Below are positions 2,746-19,984 of a stretch of DNA of 32,693 nucleotides, piece after piece. Origin of the DNA: Methyloprofundus sp. (lineage in GTDB: Bacteria > Pseudomonadota > Gammaproteobacteria > Methylococcales > Methylomonadaceae). Position numbers and translations under genes: made by a program. The notes beneath the pieces are model-generated. The model ran no database searches and had not been told where the DNA came from. It worked only from the letters and a program-made list of their open reading frames with translations. Numbering within the stretch: position 1 is the first letter of the stretch; each line of letters begins with the position of its first letter. The stretch covers positions 1-32,693 of the forward strand of contig JAQRMR010000058.1 in NCBI GenBank assembly GCA_028599115.1. The letters are read 5' to 3'.

Positions 2746-5103
2746 CTAAAATAAAGCTTCCGTTGTTTGTGGTGTGTTTTCTCCTGAGCCATCTTTTTCA
2801 TCAATATCTAAAAGGGGGGTTGGCATGGGTGCATACTCAGTTGGAATATTTTCATCTCTAAAAAACTCCCAATAACTAAATTCAGAGGCTTTTTCTTCTT
2901 GGCTTAGTAAACTTGTTTTTTTATCCAGTAATATTTTAGTGATACCGGTTGGTGGTAAGAGTTCGTGCTCTGGTTTGTTTTGCAGTGCTACACGCATAAA
3001 ATCAATCCATAAAGGGAGAGCGGCTTTTCCGCCTGTCTCCCAAGGACCTAAGCTTTTAGAGTCATCCCTGCCAACCCATGCAATACCGACGATATCTTTT
3101 GTGTAGCCGTTAAACCAGGCGTCTTTTTGCTTATTAGTGGTGCCCGTTTTTCCTGCTAAATCAGTGCGGTTTAGTGCTTTAGCTTTAACTCCGGTACCTC
3201 GGCGTACAACATCACGAAGTAATGAATTCATTAAAAAATTGACGGGTTTAGATATAATGCGAGGTGCCTGACTGACTGTGTTTTGATTGGCGCAGTCTGC
3301 ACAGGCAAGTAAAGGGGAGGCTTGAAAAATGACATCTCCCTTTGCTGACTCGATACGGTCAATAAAATAAGGCTGAATTAAAAAGCCGCCATTAGCAAAA
3401 ACAGAGTACATACGAGCCATTTCTAATGGTGATGCGTAGCCGCTTCCAAGAGCTAAGGAAAGTTTTTGAGAGAGTTGTTCGGCGATGAAGCCAAAGCGGA
3501 GCGCAGTATCTGTTACGCTAGGTATGCCAAGTGAGCGTAATAACCGAATTGAGATTAAGTTGCGTGAAAGTCTAAGTGCTGTGCGTATGCTGGTGGGGCC
3601 GTAAAACTTATGGCTATAGTTTTCTGGTCTCCACTCGGTCGTTTGTGTGTTATCGCCAACAATAGGTGCATCGTTGATAAGGCTAGCCACGGTGTAGTTA
3701 TTTTCTAGTGCGGTGGTATAAATAATAGGTTTAAACCCTGAGCCCGGCTGTCTTTTTGCTTGTATCGCGCGGTTGTATTTGTTGTTAAAAAATGAATAGC
3801 CTCCTGAAAGGGCTAAAATAGCGCCATTATTTGGACTTAAGGCGACAAAGGCGCTTTGAGCTTCAGGTTTTTGGGCAAGCACCCAGGTGTCATTGTTTTT
3901 TCTAACTCGAAAAGTATCCCCTTGTTTGAGAATATCTAAAAAAGAGTGTATTTCTTGTTTGCGACTTTTATTTTGCGCAGTTGAAGTGCTATAAGGGGAA
4001 TCTTTCCAAAATAAAGTGATGGTGGTGTTATCTTTAAGTTTGGCGGTTAGTTTTTCTTTGTCTATGAAAGTGACTTGGGCGGCAAAGGTGTGGCCTATGT
4101 TAGGAGTATTAGTGAGTGCAATATTTTTTTCGCGGTTATTTCGGTAACTATAGCGCTCATCATAGTGATGTAAGTTTGTTCTCAAGCTGTTTGTTGCTGC
4201 GCCTTGTAGTGTTGAGTTAATCGTTGTATAAACTTTTAACCCAGAGGTATAAGCTGACTCTTCGCCATATAGGTTAATAATGTCGTTACGAACCATTTCA
4301 GCTATATAAGGGGCATAAAGCTCTCGTTGATTAGTATAGCGATGGGCGGTCACTTCTGCGGAGCTTGCTAGTGTGTATTCTGCATTGTTAATGTAGCCTA
4401 GCTCAAGCATGCGTCCCAGTACGTAATTGCGACGAATTAATGCGCGCCTGGGGTTTGATATGGGGTTGTATAGTGAGGGAGCTTTGGGGAGGCCTGCAAT
4501 CATTGCTAATTCGGCAAGTGTTAATTCTGCTAAGGGGCGGTGGTAATAAATATCAGCTGCTGCAGCAATGCCGTAAGACCTTTGGCCAAGATATATTTTA
4601 TTAAAATAAAGTTCTAATATTTCATGCTTAGTGAGTTCTGATTCAATTTTAAAAGATAGGATAATTTCTTTGATTTTTCGGGTGTAGGTTTTTTCGTTAG
4701 AGAGTAGAAAGTTTCGCGCGACTTGCATGGTAATAGTGCTGCCACCCTGTTTCTTTTTGCCAGTTAATATAAGCTGAATAACAGCGCGAGCTAAGCCTTT
4801 ATAGTCAACACCAGAGTGAGTAAAAAAGTTCGCGTCTTCAGAGGCGGTAAAGGCATTGATTAGTTGTTTAGGGGTGTTATTAATTGAAATTGGGCTGCGA
4901 ATTTTTTCACCGAACTGCTCAATGAGTAGCCCGTCTGAGCTGTAAACACTTAGGGGTTGGTTGTATGTGACACTTCTAAGAATCTGTGTATCAGGTAGTT
5001 CGTTACGCAGTTGCTGGTAAGCGATATAGCAAGTTACTAATCCAATAGCAGACAAACTAAGGAGCGAAATTAAGCCCCATTTTAAAATTTGTTTAAGAGT
5101 CAT
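2746..5103 (-). CDS. mrcA: Penicillin-binding protein 1A (bifunctional transglycosylase/transpeptidase)
   Basis: This class A PBP polymerises and cross-links peptidoglycan on the outer face of the inner membrane. The 785 residues show: a short cytoplasmic start and membrane helix (about 8-29); a GT51 glycosyltransferase domain with catalytic E89 in SEDANFFTHSG and the QGGSTITMQ motif at 119-127; an OB-like insert (about 310-405), as in PBP1A proteins; and a transpeptidase with S455-x-x-K458 (GSGFK), S513-R-N515 and K652-T-G-T655. All catalytic motifs are intact. The gene is divergent from pilM, the conserved arrangement in many gammaproteobacteria (mrcA/ponA next to pilMNOPQ). The ATG at 5103 has only a weak ribosome binding site. 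Confidence 0.95.
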   Translation of the reverse strand: MTLKQILKWGLISLLSLSAIGLVTCYIAYQQLRNELPDTQILRSVTYNQPLSVYSSDGLLIEQFGEKIRSPISINNTPKQLINAFTASEDANFFTHSGVDYKGLARAVIQLILTGKKKQGGSTITMQVARNFLLSNEKTYTRKIKEIILSFKIESELTKHEILELYFNKIYLGQRSYGIAAAADIYYHRPLAELTLAELAMIAGLPKAPSLYNPISNPRRALIRRNYVLGRMLELGYINNAEYTLASSAEVTAHRYTNQRELYAPYIAEMVRNDIINLYGEESAYTSGLKVYTTINSTLQGAATNSLRTNLHHYDERYSYRNNREKNIALTNTPNIGHTFAAQVTFIDKEKLTAKLKDNTTITLFWKDSPYSTSTAQNKSRKQEIHSFLDILKQGDTFRVRKNNDTWVLAQKPEAQSAFVALSPNNGAILALSGGYSFFNNKYNRAIQAKRQPGSGFKPIIYTTALENNYTVASLINDAPIVGDNTQTTEWRPENYSHKFYGPTSIRTALRLSRNLISIRLLRSLGIPSVTDTALRFGFIAEQLSQKLSLALGSGYASPLEMARMYSVFANGGFLIQPYFIDRIESAKGDVIFQASPLLACADCANQNTVSQAPRIISKPVNFLMNSLLRDVVRRGTGVKAKALNRTDLAGKTGTTNKQKDAWFNGYTKDIVGIAWVGRDDSKSLGPWETGGKAALPLWIDFMRVALQNKPEHELLPPTGITKILLDKKTSLLSQEEKASEFSYWEFFRDENIPTEYAPMPTPLLDIDEKDGSGENTPQTTEALF

Positions 5104-5424: not shown

Positions 5425-6483
5425 ATGAAATGGTTTAATCGTAAGTCTGAGCGTATTTTAGGGATTGATATAAGTACGGCAGCAATTAAGTTACTGGAAT
5501 TGAGCAAAACATCAGAAGGATATAAAGTTGAGAGCTATGCTGTTCGACCTATACCGGAAGGTGTTTTAGTAAATAATGACCCAGAAGATATGGAAGTTAT
5601 TTCTGAAACAATTCGTGATGTCTTGAAGCAAGCAAACACAAAGGTACGCAGTGCAAGTATTGCTATAGCCGAATCAGATGTATTTAGAAAAGTAATCACA
5701 ATGCCAGCAGGGTTCTCTGATTCTGAAATGGAAGAACAGATTATTATTGATGCTGATCAATATATCCCTTACCCATTAGATGAAGTCCGCTTTGATTTTG
5801 AAGTGATAGAAACAGATGAAAAAACGGATACTGCTGAAGTGTTGTTAGTTGCATCGAGAATGGAAAACATTGATGAGCGAGTAGCAATACTAGAGTTGGC
5901 CGATGTAGTGACGAAAGTGGTTGATTTAGAAACCTTTGTTATGGTTGACGCATTATCTTTACTTGCCAATGATTTACCTAATAAAGGGGCAGATCAAACC
6001 ATAGCAATGGTTGATATCGGTGCTTCTATTATTAGTTTAAATGTCGTTCGTGATGGGCGGTCTATTTATGCGCGTGATCAAACTTTGGGTGGCCGGCAGT
6101 TAACAGAGGAAATTCAACGAATTTATGGCTATTCATTTGAAGAGGCAGGGAGGGCTAAGAAAAGTGCTAATGCACCTGAAGGATATAATACAGAGGCATT
6201 AGAGCCGTTTAAGCGGGCAATTGTGCAGCAGATAGCAAGGGCGCTGCAAGTATTTTATTCATCTGCAGCAAGAGAGGATATTGATAGCATTGTTTTCTCT
6301 GGAGGTTGTGCGTCTATCGAGGGAATAGCGGAGCTAGTAGAAGTGGATCAAAAATGCCCTGTTTTAATTGCAAACCCTTTCCATAGCATGGCTGTAGCAA
6401 AAAATATAAATGAACAAAGCTTAAATGCTGATGCACCTGCATTGATGGTGGCTTGTGGTTTAGCGCTAAGGAGTTTTGACTAA
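5425..6483 (+). CDS. pilM: Type IV pilus assembly protein PilM
   Basis: PilM is a cytoplasmic actin/FtsA-like ATP-binding protein. It holds the short N-terminal tail of PilN and so links the cytoplasmic motor side to the PilNOP alignment complex. The 352 residues carry the actin-fold phosphate-binding segments: GIDISTAAIKLLEL at about 13-26, VDIGAS near 198 and FSGGCASIEG near 291-300. The length is normal for the family. Its TAA stop shares one base with the pilN ATG (TAATG at 6481-6485), which implies translational coupling. It is the first gene of the operon and is divergent from mrcA. Confidence 0.94.
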   Translation: MKWFNRKSERILGIDISTAAIKLLELSKTSEGYKVESYAVRPIPEGVLVNNDPEDMEVISETIRDVLKQANTKVRSASIAIAESDVFRKVITMPAGFSDSEMEEQIIIDADQYIPYPLDEVRFDFEVIETDEKTDTAEVLLVASRMENIDERVAILELADVVTKVVDLETFVMVDALSLLANDLPNKGADQTIAMVDIGASIISLNVVRDGRSIYARDQTLGGRQLTEEIQRIYGYSFEEAGRAKKSANAPEGYNTEALEPFKRAIVQQIARALQVFYSSAAREDIDSIVFSGGCASIEGIAELVEVDQKCPVLIANPFHSMAVAKNINEQSLNADAPALMVACGLALRSFD

Positions 6484-7049
6484 TGGCTCGAATTAACTTA
6501 TTACCGTGGCGAGAAGCGTTACGTAAGAAAAAGCAGAATGATTTCTTTGTTGGAATAGGGGGGAGTGCTATTTTTGCAATTGCTGTCGTACTTTCTTATT
6601 TATATTATTTAAACGGAGAGATTGAGACGCAGCAGAACATGCGAGCGAAAGTGGAACAAAAAACTAAAGAGCTGCGTTTAGTAACTAAGAAAATTAGGGA
6701 TATAAAAAAGAAGAAAACTATTATTGACGATAAAATGATGGCGATACAAAAATTGCAAAATAGCCGACAAGTTGTTGTACATTTTATGGATGAAGTAGGA
6801 AAGGTTATTCCTGATGGTGTGCACTTAACAGAAATTAAGCAAGGTGATGCACAGGTCTCGGTTAAAGGTAAAACCCAATCAAATGCACGTATTTCAGAAT
6901 TAATGAGAAATATTGATAATTCAGATTGGCTGGTCGCTCCTGAAATTAGTGTTATCGAAATGGGAAAAAAAGGAGCTAGTGGTAAGTTAAGTGATTTTAC
7001 ACTTACTCTTAAGCAACGTAAGAATGAAACCAAAGAAGAGGATCAGTAA
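6483..7049 (+). CDS. pilN: Type IV pilus assembly protein PilN
   Basis: PilN is a bitopic inner-membrane protein of the pilus alignment complex. Residues 1-9 (MARINLLPW) are the conserved cytoplasmic motif that docks into PilM. A single transmembrane helix follows at about 22-44. A lysine-rich coiled-coil stretch runs to about 85. The rest is a small periplasmic alpha/beta domain that pairs with PilO. The 188-residue length fits the family. Both ends overlap their neighbours by one base through TAATG junctions. Confidence 0.93.
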   Translation: MARINLLPWREALRKKKQNDFFVGIGGSAIFAIAVVLSYLYYLNGEIETQQNMRAKVEQKTKELRLVTKKIRDIKKKKTIIDDKMMAIQKLQNSRQVVVHFMDEVGKVIPDGVHLTEIKQGDAQVSVKGKTQSNARISELMRNIDNSDWLVAPEISVIEMGKKGASGKLSDFTLTLKQRKNETKEEDQ

Positions 7050-8212
7050 TGGATCTATCTGAAATTAATTGGGATATTAATGAGGCGGGTGGCTGGCCTG
7101 TTCCCTTGAAAATATCAGCTGGGCTACTTGTTTTTTTCTTAATCATTGGTGGGGGGCATTATCAATTTACCAGTGATAAATTAAATGATTTAAACAGAGA
7201 GAAGGTTGAACTGCAAACCGCTATAAATTCTTATGGAACTGAATGGCGCATGGCTTTAAATTTAAAACTACATCAACAGCAATATAAAACAATTGAGGCA
7301 GCACTGGCTGAAATGATGCGCTTGATGCCAAGCGAAGCTGAAATGGCTAATTTGTTGGTCGATATTTCACAAACAGGTGTATCAAGTGGCTTGGAGTGTA
7401 ATTTATTTAAGCCTGCTGGAAAAATCACTCGTGATGATGTTGTTGCTTTACCTATTAATATTAAAGTGCAAGGGATGTATAAGGAGTTAGGCGTATTTGT
7501 CGGGGGGCTAGCAGCCTTACCTAGAATTGTCACAATAAAAGACATTCAAATTTCTCCTTTAAAAGAGAACAGCCTATTAAAGATGGCAGCAACTATCACG
7601 ACGTACCAAGAAATAGAGGCAGGAGAAGAGCAGAAACCAGCGCTAATGGATAATAGTCACCTAGTGTGCTTTAAGGATGAAGGTTTGATTATCGAAGGGT
7701 GTACTAAAACAAGTGAAGTTAAGTTATCTGAGTTTCCTGAGTTGGCTCAACGATTAAAGAAGGAAAGGGAAGATTCGACTCCTATTCGTGTTGGCGAGAT
7801 TAAAAAAATGCCACCTCTTGAAGTGTTTACATTTAATCCTAAGGAGATAAGAGACCCATTTAGCTCAAAGGTTCCTGGCAAGTATGGGGAAGGAAATTTA
7901 GACCAAGAGAAAAGTGGAATATTTCCAGATTTTGATCGAAAAAAAGGTGTTTTAGAAAATGTATCGCTCGATACTCTTAAGTTAATTGGGACTATAAAAA
8001 AGAAAAATAATCCCATTAAGTGGGGTTTAATTAAAGTAGCAAGTGGGAAGGTTCATCGAGTAAAAAAAGGAAGTTACTTGGGGAAAAATTATGGAGAAAT
8101 TATTGACATTTCATCTGCTAAAATAGACATTATGGAAATTATTCCAAATGGGCAAGGCGGTTGGGAAGAAAGAGCGGCATCAATTGCTTTATCAAAAGCT
8201 GACGAGAAGTGA
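7049..8212 (+). CDS. pilO-pilP: PilO-PilP fusion protein (type IV pilus inner-membrane alignment complex)
   Basis: One 387-residue frame covers what are normally two genes. Residues 1-192 look like PilO: a cytoplasmic start, a membrane helix at about 21-37, a coiled coil, then a periplasmic alpha/beta domain ending in ATITTYQEIE. Residues about 225-387 look like PilP: a Pro-rich extended segment leading to TFNPKEIRDPFSS (261-273), then the beta-domain from LDTLKLIGTI (308-317) to the end. PilP is normally a separate inner-membrane lipoprotein of about 175 residues. Here no signal peptide precedes it; only a lipobox-like LIIEGC (213-218) in a charged context remains. A TAATG at 7644-7648, the same junction used between pilM/pilN and pilN/pilO, lies out of the PilO frame. 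Tethering would be supplied by the PilO helix. A true fusion is favoured, but a single-base error cannot be excluded. Confidence 0.85.
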   Translation: MDLSEINWDINEAGGWPVPLKISAGLLVFFLIIGGGHYQFTSDKLNDLNREKVELQTAINSYGTEWRMALNLKLHQQQYKTIEAALAEMMRLMPSEAEMANLLVDISQTGVSSGLECNLFKPAGKITRDDVVALPINIKVQGMYKELGVFVGGLAALPRIVTIKDIQISPLKENSLLKMAATITTYQEIEAGEEQKPALMDNSHLVCFKDEGLIIEGCTKTSEVKLSEFPELAQRLKKEREDSTPIRVGEIKKMPPLEVFTFNPKEIRDPFSSKVPGKYGEGNLDQEKSGIFPDFDRKKGVLENVSLDTLKLIGTIKKKNNPIKWGLIKVASGKVHRVKKGSYLGKNYGEIIDISSAKIDIMEIIPNGQGGWEERAASIALSKADEK

Positions 8213-8240
8213 TATAAAAATTAAACAAGGCGGGTGGGGT

Positions 8241-10454
8241 ATGGACAGGTTAAGTCGATGGGCATTAATGCATGTTTTTATGCTGAGCTGTTTGTTTTTT
8301 GGGCAGGCTATTGCTGCTGAAACTCAGGCTCAGTTGCTTAAAAATGTAGACTTTACTGCGCTGTCGGGAAATAAGGCTCGATTGGCTTTTGAAATGTCCG
8401 AAAAGGCAGTTAAGCCAAAGGTTTTTCAAATGAGTAAACCTGCAAGGATAGTTTTAGATTTTTCAGGGGTAAAAAGTGCGTTAAAGCAGAAAAAAAATAC
8501 GATTAATCAAGCAGGGGTTAATAGCTATATTGCTGTAGAGGCAGGTGATAGGTTGAGGGTCGTTGTAAACTTACGAGAAAAATTAACTTATACCCTTAAG
8601 CAAGAGGGCAAAAGGACGTTACTTGTTTTAACGCAAATTGAGACAGCAAAAAACTCGCTTAGCTCTACTGCAAATGATTTAGCTGATAAGCAGGTTAGTA
8701 TTGCAAAACAAGAAATTAAAAAAATAGATTTTAGAAGAGGAGCTAAAGGTGAGGGAAGAATTTTAATTTCTTTATCCAATAAAACTACTTTAGTTAAAAC
8801 ACAGCAAAAAGCGGGGAAAGTTGAATTACGCTTTATTAATACAAAATTGCCTGCAAATTATGCAAAACGTATGGATGTGATTGATTTTGCAACACCTGTG
8901 TCTATCATTGATGCAAAACAAAGTGGTGCAGATGTTAAAATTCTTATCACACCGATAGAGACAGAATATAAGTATTCAGTATTTCAGGCCGAAGGTTTAT
9001 TAACCGTTAAAGTAAGAGAAATTACTGTAGAAGAGAGCAAGGCGAAAAAGGCTGCATATAAGGGAGAAAGGTTGACCTTAGATTTTCATGATATTGAAGT
9101 ACGAAATGCATTTAAAATTTTAGCAGAAATTTCTGGCGAAAATATTATTGTTGATGATGCGGTGTCCGGAAACCTTACTTTACAGCTAGATGACGTACAT
9201 TGGGATCACGCATTTGCGCTCGTTTTAAAATTAAAAGGTTTAGCAAAGCGGCAAGTGGATAATGTCACCCTTGTTGCTCCTATGGAAAAAATCCGAAAAT
9301 TAGAAGAAGAAGAAATTGAAGCTCAAAAGGTTAATGAACGGTTAGAACCTTTAGTAACAGAATATATACCCATTAATTATGCACAAGCAGAAAGTTTTAA
9401 GGATATTTTAGAAGGGAATTCCTCGAGGGCTAGAGGAGGCTGTGCATTGATAGGGCTAGAGTTAGGCGGTAGTAGTGGGGGTTCTAGCGGCGGTAGTGGT
9501 GGTGCGAATATTGGAGGGAGTAATAATAGCTCGAATAATAACTCGAATAATAACGACGACGACGATGAAAATAATGCCTTATTATCTAAAAGAGGTACTG
9601 CACTAGTTGACCCTCGGACAAATACGTTAATTGTTAAAGATACCGCTAAGCAGCTAGAAGAAGTAAGAAAAATGTTAGCGTTATTGGACGTGCCTGTTAG
9701 GCAGGTTCTGATTGAAGCAAGAATTGTTATTGCAGAAGAAGGTTTCCAGCAAGACTTAGGGGTTAAGTTTGGTGCTTCTTATGCTGGAGGAGATGGGGCA
9801 AATACTGGCTTTGGAATAGGAGGGTCGACGGGAGGTTCAACGTCGGTAAATGGAGCTGACCCTATTTCATCGGTGGTTACTGGTTTGGCAGCAGCTAACC
9901 CTTATGGAGCATTAGGTATGACCTTAGTCAGTGGAGCTGATTATGTGTTGAACTTGGAAATATCAGCAATGCAGGATGATAGAAAAGCGGAATTTGTTTC
10001 CAACCCTAAAATTTTAACTTCTGACAGATGTATTGCAAGGATTGAACAAGGGGAAGAAATACCTTTTCAAACAACGAGCCAAGAAGGGACAACAACTATT
10101 TTTAAAGATGCTTCTATTGTATTAGAAGTTATCCCTCAGATAACACCGACAGGAAGTGTTATCATGAAAATAAAAATAACGAAAGACTCCCGAGGAGATC
10201 AAACGCCAGATGGTTTAGCCATTAATAAGCGTGAAATTAATACAAGTGTTCATATCAAAAATGGTGAGACAATTGTATTGGGTGGGGTGTATGAAGGTGA
10301 TACTTTACATACAGTAGAGTCGGTTCCTTGGTTTGCAGACTTACCTTTAGTGGGGTGGATGTTTAGGCGAAATATTGAAGGGGACTCAAAAAGAGAGCTG
10401 TTAATATTTATTACCCCAAAAGTAGTTAAAGATGTGATGCGAACCCAATCGTAA
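8241..10454 (+). CDS. pilQ: Type IV pilus secretin PilQ
   Basis: PilQ forms the outer-membrane channel through which the pilus exits. I place the start at the ATG at 8241, which gives 737 residues with a signal peptide (hydrophobic core about 8-22, cleavage near AIAAE). The open frame extends upstream to 8148, but that part overlaps pilO-pilP and would bury the signal sequence. Domains in order: two peptidoglycan-binding AMIN-type domains (about 25-260); an STN/N0 domain from LTLDFHDIEVRNAF (about 275-345); an N1 domain interrupted by a Gly/Ser/Asn/Asp-rich insert (409-445); and the secretin beta-domain with the C-terminal signature VPWFADLPLVGWMFRR near 694. A G-rich stretch before 8241 can act as the ribosome binding site. 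A terminator follows directly. Confidence 0.93.
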   Translation: MDRLSRWALMHVFMLSCLFFGQAIAAETQAQLLKNVDFTALSGNKARLAFEMSEKAVKPKVFQMSKPARIVLDFSGVKSALKQKKNTINQAGVNSYIAVEAGDRLRVVVNLREKLTYTLKQEGKRTLLVLTQIETAKNSLSSTANDLADKQVSIAKQEIKKIDFRRGAKGEGRILISLSNKTTLVKTQQKAGKVELRFINTKLPANYAKRMDVIDFATPVSIIDAKQSGADVKILITPIETEYKYSVFQAEGLLTVKVREITVEESKAKKAAYKGERLTLDFHDIEVRNAFKILAEISGENIIVDDAVSGNLTLQLDDVHWDHAFALVLKLKGLAKRQVDNVTLVAPMEKIRKLEEEEIEAQKVNERLEPLVTEYIPINYAQAESFKDILEGNSSRARGGCALIGLELGGSSGGSSGGSGGANIGGSNNSSNNNSNNNDDDDENNALLSKRGTALVDPRTNTLIVKDTAKQLEEVRKMLALLDVPVRQVLIEARIVIAEEGFQQDLGVKFGASYAGGDGANTGFGIGGSTGGSTSVNGADPISSVVTGLAAANPYGALGMTLVSGADYVLNLEISAMQDDRKAEFVSNPKILTSDRCIARIEQGEEIPFQTTSQEGTTTIFKDASIVLEVIPQITPTGSVIMKIKITKDSRGDQTPDGLAINKREINTSVHIKNGETIVLGGVYEGDTLHTVESVPWFADLPLVGWMFRRNIEGDSKRELLIFITPKVVKDVMRTQS
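9465..9575 (+). repeat. Low-complexity Gly/Ser-Asn-Asp coding repeat in pilQ
   Basis: The DNA runs through GGT/AGT-type Gly-Ser codons, then AATAATA-type Asn repeats with TCG interruptions, then four Asp codons GAC GAC GAC GAT. It encodes residues 409-445 of PilQ, a disordered linker inside the N1 region. Such simple repeats are prone to length change by slippage. Confidence 0.75.
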
Positions 10455-17025: not shown

Positions 17026-17778
17026 ATGGCTGCTACTACTGATTCAGTGAAAGCTGATGCTTCAGAAGCCCCACTGCTAAATAAAGTTAACCTGTTCGCA
17101 GGTTTAATGCTTTACTTGGTATTCTACTCATTCATTCGTTGGTACGAAGGTATTTACGGATGGTCTGCAGGTTTAGATTCATTCGCACCTGAGTTCGAAA
17201 CATATTGGATGAATATGTTATACATCGAGCTTGTTGCTGAAGTATTTATCGCTTCTAGTTTATGGGGATGGCTTTGGAAAACTCGTGATCGTAATGTTAT
17301 GTCTATCACACCTCGTGAAGAGCTAAGAAGACATTTTCATCACTGGGTTTGGTTAGTCATGTACGGTTGGGCTATTTACTGGGGTGCTTCATACTTCACT
17401 GAGCAAGATGGTACTTGGCATCAGACTATCGTTCGTGATACTGATTTCACGCCAAGTCACATCATTGAGTTCTACTTATCATACCCAATTTACATCATTA
17501 CTGGTGTAGCTTCATTCCTATATGCTAAGACTAGACTTCCTGCTTATTCGGAAGGTCTATCACTTATGTATTTAGTGTCTGTGTTGGGTCCATTCATGAT
17601 TCTACCAAACGTAGGCCTTAACGAATGGGGTCACACTTTTTGGTTCATGGAAGAGTTATTCGTAGCTCCTCTTCATTACGGTTTTGTATTCTTCGGGTGG
17701 GCAGCTCTTGCTGTATTAGGTGTTGTGAACACTGAAGTTGATGCTTTAACTAAACTACTTAAAAAAGACCTAGCTTAA
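17026..17778 (+). CDS. pmoC: Particulate methane monooxygenase subunit C
   Basis: PmoC is a multi-spanning subunit of the intracytoplasmic-membrane enzyme that oxidises methane to methanol. In the 250-residue protein the copper ligands known from Methylococcus capsulatus (numbering there 28 higher) are all present: D128, H132 and H145 for the CuC site, and N199, H203 and H217 for the CuD site. These lie in DGTWHQ, TPSHIIEFY, LNEWGH and APLHYG. The protein starts after a perfect TAGGAGGT ribosome binding site. Compared with flanking genes, codon use shifts to TTC, TAC, AAC and CGT, as expected for very high expression. The order pmoC-pmoA-pmoB is canonical. Confidence 0.98.
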   Translation: MAATTDSVKADASEAPLLNKVNLFAGLMLYLVFYSFIRWYEGIYGWSAGLDSFAPEFETYWMNMLYIELVAEVFIASSLWGWLWKTRDRNVMSITPREELRRHFHHWVWLVMYGWAIYWGASYFTEQDGTWHQTIVRDTDFTPSHIIEFYLSYPIYIITGVASFLYAKTRLPAYSEGLSLMYLVSVLGPFMILPNVGLNEWGHTFWFMEELFVAPLHYGFVFFGWAALAVLGVVNTEVDALTKLLKKDLA

Positions 17779-17818
17779 TATTTAAAAAAAGCAAGTTTTA
17801 AAATAGTAGTAAGAACTT

Positions 17819-17874
17819 GTTATCTCCTTATCTTTCCGCTCCGTTTGGGGCGGAAAGATAAATAGAGAGATAAC
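17819..17874 (+). promoter_or_regulatory. Very stable hairpin between pmoC and pmoA
   Basis: The inner stem TATCTTTCCGCTCC (17829-17842) pairs with 17847-17860 around GTTT (one T-G pair). An outer GTTATCTC (17819-17826) pairs with GAGATAAC (17867-17874). About 23 bp are paired in total. It begins 41 bp after the pmoC stop. No T tract follows, which argues for an RNA processing or stability element rather than full termination. Confidence 0.85.
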
Positions 17875-17907
17875 GATAATAATAAAAATTTTTTTGGAGG
17901 TAAGCGA

Positions 17908-18657
17908 ATGAGTGCATCTCAATCAGCTGTACGTTCACGTGCTGAAGCGGTTCAAGTTTCACGTACGTTAGACTGGATGATTCTCTTTACATTATTCACT
18001 GTTATACTTGGTGGATATCATATTCACTACATGTTAACTGGTGGTGACTGGGATTTCTGGGCAGATTGGAAAGATAGACGTTTATGGGTAACTGTAGCGC
18101 CAATCGTATCAATCACTTTCCCTGCTGCTGTTCAAGCATGTTTGTGGTACCGTTACCGTCTTCCTTTTGGAGCGGTAGTTTGTGTTCTTGCTCTTATGAT
18201 CGGTGAGTGGATTAACAGATACTTAAACTTCTGGGGATGGACGTACTTCCCAGTAAACTTCTGTTTCCCATCTAACCTAGTTCCTGGTGCGATTCTTCTT
18301 GATGTTGTACTAATGCTTTCTGGCAGCTTTGTATTAACAGCTGTTCTTGGTGGTATGGCTTGGGGATTAGTTTTCTACCCAGGTAACTGGCCAATTATTG
18401 CTCCTTTACATGTACCTGTTGAATATAACGGTATGATGTTCACATTAGCTGATTTACAAGGCTACCATTACGTACGTACTGGTACTCCTGAGTACATCAG
18501 AATGGTTGAAAAAGGAACATTAAGATCTTTCGGTAAAGATGTTGCTCCAGTATCAGCATTCTTCTCGGCTTTCGTTTCAGTTATCATTTACTTCTTATGG
18601 CATTTCTTTGGAAGATGGTTTTCAAAAACTGACTTCATTGATGGCGAAGGCGTATAA
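17908..18657 (+). CDS. pmoA: Particulate methane monooxygenase subunit A
   Basis: PmoA is the membrane subunit most used as the methanotroph marker gene. The 249 residues show the family segments GGDWDFWADWKDRRLW (site of the common A189-type primer, DNA 18040-18058), GEWINRYLNFWGWTYFPVNF and GNWPIIAPLHVPVEYNG. It also has the LRSFGKDVAPVSAF segment used by the mb661-type primer. GGAGGT lies eight bases before the ATG. The sequence reads as true PmoA of a type I methanotroph rather than AmoA, judged by family resemblance; placing it in a genus needs a tree. Strong codon bias matches pmoC and pmoB. Confidence 0.98.
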   Translation: MSASQSAVRSRAEAVQVSRTLDWMILFTLFTVILGGYHIHYMLTGGDWDFWADWKDRRLWVTVAPIVSITFPAAVQACLWYRYRLPFGAVVCVLALMIGEWINRYLNFWGWTYFPVNFCFPSNLVPGAILLDVVLMLSGSFVLTAVLGGMAWGLVFYPGNWPIIAPLHVPVEYNGMMFTLADLQGYHYVRTGTPEYIRMVEKGTLRSFGKDVAPVSAFFSAFVSVIIYFLWHFFGRWFSKTDFIDGEGV

Positions 18658-18739
18658 ATAATAGTTTAGAAACATTATGTTTTTTATCTATTATTAATAA
18701 TAATAACGAAAATAAATTTCTCTAGTTTGGAGGAGATAT

Positions 18740-19984
18740 ATGAAAACAATTAAAGACAAAATAGCTAAGCTATCATTTGTCGCATTGCTATTGGCTGTAA
18801 CATCTGCGATGTTCTACACGCCTGCAGCATCTGCACATGGTGAAAAGTCTCAAGCAGCATTCATGCGTATGCGTACTATTCATTGGTTTGATCTTGATTG
18901 GTCAAAAGATGAAGTAGCTGTCAATGAGCAAATAACTATTTCTGGTAAATTCCACGTTTTCGCTGGATGGCCTGAAACTGTTGATAAGCCTGAAGTATCT
19001 TTCTTGAACATTGGTATTCCAGGGCCTGTATTTATTCGTCAAGGTTCTTGGATCGGTGGTCAATTAGTTCCACGTTCTGTAACACTAGAACTAGGTGATA
19101 CTTACGAATTCAAAGTTCTTCTAAAAGCACGTCGTCCAGGTGACTGGCACGTACATACTATGATGAACGTTGAAGGTGGTGGTCCAATTATTGGTCCAGG
19201 TAAGTGGGTAACTGTTACTGGTACAATGGGCGATTTCGTTAACCCATTAACTACTTTAACTGGAACTACTCTAGATTTAGAAGATTATGGGCTAGCTAAC
19301 ATATACTTTTGGCATGCTCTATGGATGTCAATTGGTGCTGCATGGATGCTATTTTGGATGAAACGTCCAATGTTTATTCCTCGTCATATCGCAGTTTCTG
19401 GTGGGAAAGCTGATACTTTAATCAGTGCTACTGACAAGAAAGTTGCAATGGGTTTTGCTGCTGGTACTTTAGGTTTACTTATGTTCTCTCTAGGAGCAAC
19501 TAACGAAGAGTACCCAATCACTACTCCATTACAAGCGGGTTTGATGCGTGGAATCATGCCAATTGAAATGCCTGAAAGTACTGTTTCTGTGAAAGTTGAA
19601 GATGCTACATACCGTGTACCTGGTCGTGCTATGCAAATGACACTTACAATCACAAACAATGGTGATTCTGCTATTCGTTTAGGCGAGTTCAACACAGCTT
19701 CTGTTCGTTTCTTAGATGCTGATGTTACTGAAGATGAATCAGGTTACCCTGATGACCTTCTAGCTGAAGAAGGTTTAACTCAATCTGATAATAGCCCTAT
19801 CGCTCCTGGCGAGTCTAAGACTATTGAAGTGACAGCTTCTGATGCAGCTTGGGAAGTTTATCGTTTAGCTGATTTAATCTACGATCCAGATAGTCGTTTT
19901 GCTGGTTTACTATTCTTCTTCGACGAAGATGGTAACCGTCAAATGACTATGGTAGATGCTCCATTAATTCCTTCTTTCATCTAA
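18740..19984 (+). CDS. pmoB: Particulate methane monooxygenase subunit B
   Basis: PmoB has two periplasmic cupredoxin domains joined by two membrane helices. In this 414-residue protein the signal peptide (about 1-32) would be cut so that H33 becomes the amino terminus. The copper ligands fall at the same numbers as in M. capsulatus: H33, H137 and H139 (GDWHVHT) for the CuB site, and H48 and H72 for the bis-His site. Membrane helices lie at about 187-206 and 233-252, and the second cupredoxin follows. GGAGGAG precedes the ATG. The gene ends the operon and is followed by a palindrome and a clear terminator. Confidence 0.98.
   Translation: MKTIKDKIAKLSFVALLLAVTSAMFYTPAASAHGEKSQAAFMRMRTIHWFDLDWSKDEVAVNEQITISGKFHVFAGWPETVDKPEVSFLNIGIPGPVFIRQGSWIGGQLVPRSVTLELGDTYEFKVLLKARRPGDWHVHTMMNVEGGGPIIGPGKWVTVTGTMGDFVNPLTTLTGTTLDLEDYGLANIYFWHALWMSIGAAWMLFWMKRPMFIPRHIAVSGGKADTLISATDKKVAMGFAAGTLGLLMFSLGATNEEYPITTPLQAGLMRGIMPIEMPESTVSVKVEDATYRVPGRAMQMTLTITNNGDSAIRLGEFNTASVRFLDADVTEDESGYPDDLLAEEGLTQSDNSPIAPGESKTIEVTASDAAWEVYRLADLIYDPDSRFAGLLFFFDEDGNRQMTMVDAPLIPSFI

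Follow-up and report, generated by a model that had tools for sequence, protein, structure and literature searches.

The pilus operon in a contig of Methyloprofundus sp. raises the question of whether PilO and PilP, two proteins of the type IVa pilus alignment complex, are made there as a single polypeptide and, if so, what became of the signal of the lipoprotein PilP. The whole stretch of DNA that was analysed, 32,693 nucleotides long, is called the window below. Its pil genes, identified with Pfam, follow the order pilMNOPQ (5425-10454), and the fused gene sits between pilN and pilQ:

5425..6483, + strand: pilM (PF11104)
6483..7049, + strand: pilN (PF05137)
7035..7042, + strand: ribosome-binding site GAAGAGGA of the fused gene, 6 nt ahead of the ATG at 7049 (sequence)
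7049..8212, + strand: pilO-pilP fusion gene, 387 aa (open frame; Pfam PilO and PilP; kept in 15 genomes)
8242..10454, + strand: pilQ secretin, AMIN domains present (PF00263, PF11741; 8242 chosen from the conserved signal sequence)

The frame 7049-8212 contains no stop and reads from a complete PilO into a complete PilP. Its product has an N-terminal helix, a PilO domain (PF04350, residues 50-187, E 4.7e-36), and a PilP domain (PF04351, residues 239-381, E 4.8e-36), which score 124.5 and 124.3 bits against gathering cut-offs of 22 and 25.6, respectively. No second PilO or PilP was found in the genome of the window (G000, 2.29 Mb in 121 contigs). With both domains in a single open frame and no separate PilP, the gene is a fusion, which bears out the claim of one polypeptide made in an earlier note on this DNA. 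The frame of PilQ overlaps the end of the fused gene (8148-8242). Relatives have an ATG ahead of the IKQGG motif of pilQ and the window has none, so PilQ probably starts at 8242. PilQ also contains a low-complexity loop rich in Gly, Ser, Asn, and Asp (9471-9575), whose length differs among members of the genus. Further along the window, three successive open reading frames resembling pmoCAB (particulate methane monooxygenase, 17026-19984) were recognised by eye, which fits a methanotroph.

The window is a single contig of a draft assembly, where a spurious base might have joined two genes. The earlier note argued instead for an old, real fusion, and alignment with relatives agrees with it. The locus is present in 17 of the 18 genomes sampled from the genus (deep-sea methanotrophic symbionts of Bathymodiolus and their relatives, Methyloprofundus), and all 17 carry or once carried the fusion. 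The frame is intact in 15 of them, window included, and the other 14, from independent assemblies, are 44-82% identical to that of the window. They include the symbionts of B. platifrons and B. puteoserpentis, and a two-contig assembly (G068, first contig of 4.386 Mb). This recurrence of a two-domain fused frame across the genus is far beyond chance. One relative does have frameshifts, but the shared fusion refutes an error in the window, and one error could not also have deleted a signal peptide and kept two cysteines (see below). We thus regard a sequencing or assembly error as having practically no chance of explaining the locus. The 15 intact frames evolve under purifying selection, with dN/dS values mostly between 0.05 and 0.28 that are similar across PilO, the joint, and PilP.

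Two fusions are broken. In the symbiont of Bathymodiolus brooksi (G020), a one-base gap lies in a non-conserved part of PilP (about 2730-2745 of its locus, L045), and pilQ is frameshifted near a run of A (about 3440-3514); the damage represents either decay of the pilus in an endosymbiont or assembly errors. In G086, an insertion sequence lies inside the joint between the two domains (about 610-2470 of locus L041, reverse strand), flanked by an 8-base direct repeat, the target repeat TTAAATAA. This locus has more damage upstream in pilO and also in pilQ.

In the PilO tree, the fused members form a single clade with 100/100 support. Outside the genus, no other full-length stop-free match was found in 251 genomes of the order or in 369 of the class, where uniqueness is a lower bound, since these genomes were searched with the window protein and divergent fusions such as those of Pseudomonas need a nearer query. 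The candidate long frames outside the genus resolved into separate genes whose lipoprotein signals are normal. Further long "open frames" elsewhere were rejected as in-frame neighbours with a stop or as spurious GC-rich frames.

The fate of the PilP signal can be followed along the parts of the fused protein:

7100..7174, + strand: sole transmembrane helix, in PilO, and only membrane anchor (hydropathy; AlphaFold helix from residue 18)
7196..7609, + strand: PilO coiled coil and ferredoxin-like core (PF04350; 2rjz match, Z 16.5)
7610..7645, + strand: variable tail linking PilO to the joint, residues 188-199 (mean pairwise identity 0.26; zero invariant residues)
7646..7723, + strand: conserved cysteine joint of residues 200-225 at the former place of the PilP signal peptide, VC[LF]xx[DE]G[LM]x[VI]xGC (invariant C207 and C218, identity, dN/dS, pLDDT 82-89)
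7667..7669, + strand: codon of the invariant Cys207 (alignment)
7700..7702, + strand: codon of the invariant Cys218, in the column of the lipobox cysteine of unfused PilP (alignment)
7724..7861, + strand: PilP N-terminal segment with a helix, a Pro-rich stretch, and RDPF (alignment with separate PilP; function from PMC5805733)
7919..8191, + strand: PilP beta-domain, PilQ-binding and GspC-HR like (PF04351; 2y4x match, Z 15.5, rmsd 1.6)

The separate PilP proteins of the family carry a hydrophobic signal at their N-terminus, the last residues of which form a lipobox, e.g., LTGC. The corresponding stretch of the fused protein reads MDNSxLVCLxxDGLxVxGC. Its maximal 12-residue Kyte-Doolittle value, in the 22 residues before C218, is 0.97 versus about 1.7-3.1 in the signals of separate PilP, a comparison limited to those with a correctly placed lipobox (several unfused rows with a failed automatic lipobox were disregarded). 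Fused members have two to four charged residues among the last 16 up to C218, and K, E, or P frequently precedes GC. The start codon is not conserved either, since codon 200 is TTA, CTG, TTG, or TTT in 5 of the 15 members. Considering the low hydropathy, the charges, the K, E, or P before GC, and the variable codon 200, it is most improbable that this segment acts as a lipoprotein signal, and the PilP part lacks the features of a lipoprotein. The hydropathy also supports two proposals of the earlier note, namely that no usable signal peptide follows the ATG at 7646 and that the lipid anchor was lost, leaving the PilO helix as the only one. A separate PilP might still be made from this ATG, which is in frame (M200) and has a TAATG context. 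Yet such internal initiation is very improbable: a ribosome-binding site is missing at the expected spacing, five members have another codon, and the resulting protein would lack an export signal.

The stretch that took the place of the signal is well conserved. Mean identity between members is 63% in residues 200-225 versus 26% in residues 188-199 and 28% in residues 272-289, and dN/dS in the joint is 0.06-0.28 where calculable. Residues N202, V206, C207, G212, G217, C218, and S222 are invariant, and the two cysteines account for 30 of the 33 found across the 15 proteins (5,747 residues). MAFFT, unprompted, aligns C218 with the lipobox cysteine of the separate PilP proteins and follows it with an insert of about six residues. 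The stretch from M200 to C218 spans 19 residues, and the joint appears to derive from the former PilP signal peptide. The AlphaFold model, built on 68 sequences including separate PilO and PilP, has a mean pLDDT of 84; it replaced a poor model on 15 sequences (pLDDT 46). In this model the joint is predicted to fold with fair confidence (blocks 201-230 have pLDDT 82-89); residues 206-208 form a short strand and residues 230-242 a helix.

The earlier note described this region as decayed. The hydrophobic signal is indeed gone, but the segment replacing it is conserved and keeps both cysteines. A simple fusion whose signal peptide is relaxed and decaying and whose cysteines have no role would fit the lipobox-like GC, which holds the position of the lipoprotein cysteine. 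It is nevertheless an unlikely account of a segment in which seven residues are invariant while the flanks drift, C207 is without a counterpart in the aligned separate PilP proteins, and the model folds the chain. The Cys207-Cys218 pair probably forms a disulfide that closes the joint, and a disulfide-closed hairpin is the simplest reading of the segment; DsbB is encoded in the genome. We tentatively propose that the signal peptide freed by the fusion became a folded periplasmic joint, where the lipobox cysteine and a partner eleven residues upstream would form a disulfide setting how the secretin-gripping PilP arm is angled against the PilO core. The 15 joint sequences all come from one genus, and the cysteines could be kept for another reason.

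The origin of the fusion is best discussed from one short element at the beginning of the joint:

7644..7648, + strand: TAATG, either left over from a stop/start overlap or resembling one by chance; its ATG is codon 200 (sequence)

The same motif joins pilM to pilN (6481-6485) and pilN to pilO (7047-7051), and the TAA at 7644 is out of the PilO frame, as already pointed out in the earlier note. Where the family has separate pilO and pilP genes, the two often share the bases ATGA or TAATG and pilP lies in a different frame; one base gained, or two lost, just before TAATG would give xTA-ATG. The codon before M200 is xTA or xTG in all 10 members keeping M200 (CTA, TTA, TTG, GTA, or GTG), for which codon usage gives a naive probability of 0.016, and relatedness weakens even this value. 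An origin by a frame change at a stop/start overlap is plausible, and this pattern points weakly to it. The more specific proposal of a base gained in the GCGC at 7640-7643 finds no support, as this tetranucleotide is not common to the relatives and the event predates the genus. TAATG was also rejected as the exact site of the event, given the variation of the preceding codon and a flanking GCGC that is private to the window. Since the fused members make up one fully supported clade, a single event before the genus radiated is enough.

A few PilO-PilP fusions, which the earlier note did not take into account, were known in 2011, e.g., in Pseudomonas putida (UniProt Q88CU9), and the same 1:1 ratio as in the note was inferred (PMC3169554). 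We found the fusion in seven Pseudomonadaceae species (L101-L107), and our comparison is based on these, P. putida Q88CU9 being known here from PMC3169554 alone. They resemble the Methyloprofundus protein in having the PilO helix and core followed by an in-frame PilP beta-domain, no separate PilP beside them, and the PilO helix in place of the lipid anchor. In contrast, only about 30-50 residues separate the end of PilO from RDPF/RSPF in the Pseudomonadaceae, where the PilP signal and the N-terminal PilNO-binding segment are deleted and there is no cysteine joint or pair. Their PilQ is short and has no AMIN part, unlike that of the window. In L101-L107 it begins almost directly at the N0 part of the secretin, i.e., short-linker fusion and AMIN loss co-occur. 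In the PilO tree, the Methyloprofundus rows cluster within Methylococcaceae that lack the fusion (100/99 and 100/100), far from the Pseudomonadaceae rows, among which L107 has a very long branch. Judging from this separate placement, the Methyloprofundus fusion, with its different construction, is a variant that arose independently of those of Pseudomonas.

Systems with separate PilO and lipoprotein PilP (P. aeruginosa, 2rjz and 2y4x; other Methylococcaceae) have the same domains in the same order and the same pilMNOPQ operon. Their PilP has its own start, a hydrophobic signal, and a lipobox cysteine. In type II secretion, the HR domain of GspC is held by a transmembrane helix, not by lipid. 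GspC has its own helix, and GspM, the counterpart of PilO, is a separate protein, unlike in the fusion. The HR domain is homologous to PilP (PMC3169554).

We consider it likely that the PilO-PilP fusion encoded by the locus is functional and ancient, that it is part of the alignment complex of the type IVa pilus and is fixed in Methyloprofundus, and that its cysteine joint comes from the former signal peptide. The PilO helix would insert the single polypeptide in the membrane and the PilO core would pair with PilN. The fused protein retains both the N-terminal region of PilP (ELxxRLKEKR ... RDPF) and the beta-domain. In P. aeruginosa the N-terminal segment binds PilN/PilO (PMC5805733); here it would bind the PilN/PilO pair in cis, and the beta-domain would reach the secretin PilQ. 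Anchoring by Lgt/LspA would be superfluous, its role taken over by the PilO helix, and the remodelled signal peptide would form the short folded joint between the domains. Because the PilO C-terminus and the whole of PilP would be periplasmic, the fusion is topologically simple. The 1:1 ratio of PilO to PilP expected in the earlier note follows from the fused chain. Alternatively, the fused protein might be cut in the periplasm within the tail 188-199, with PilO and a soluble PilP acting separately. The tail is the least conserved stretch and adjoins the joint; still, it has no conserved cleavage motif, a freed PilP would lose its attachment to the membrane, and the short linkers of the Pseudomonas fusions have no such tail, which makes cleavage quite unlikely.

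The genome of the window encodes homologues of PilB, PilC, PilT, and PilU, so the pilus machine is probably usable. The pilMNOPQ operon with assembly and retraction ATPases identifies a type IVa alignment complex. Several loci of this genome (G000:C61:14870-16877, C54:27143-29505, C80:12473-13405, and C77:1286-3751) carry PilT/PilU-like ATPases, PilB-PilC, three N-methyl (pilin-like) proteins, and a GspE/GspF/GspG-like set. Among the four N-methyl matches in the genome, none could be clearly recognised as the major pilin PilA. Some endosymbionts of the genus were reported to have no pili (PMC8788690). The fusion is intact in the Bathymodiolus platifrons symbiont L049, yet in the platifrons symbiont assembly of the same study, pilus assembly received an absent score.

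The PilO-PilP fusion as such was already known, and what sets the present one apart is its independent origin and the architecture with a cysteine joint. It provides a second, independent natural case for a 1:1 ratio of PilO to PilP in the pilus alignment complex, and suggests that the lipid anchor of PilP is dispensable even when its whole N-terminal segment is kept. Crystallization of the three-protein complex of P. aeruginosa failed (PMC5805733), and a single chain could suit structural work better than such a complex. The cysteine joint, if the proposal holds, would allow the acquisition of a new role by a signal peptide to be traced.
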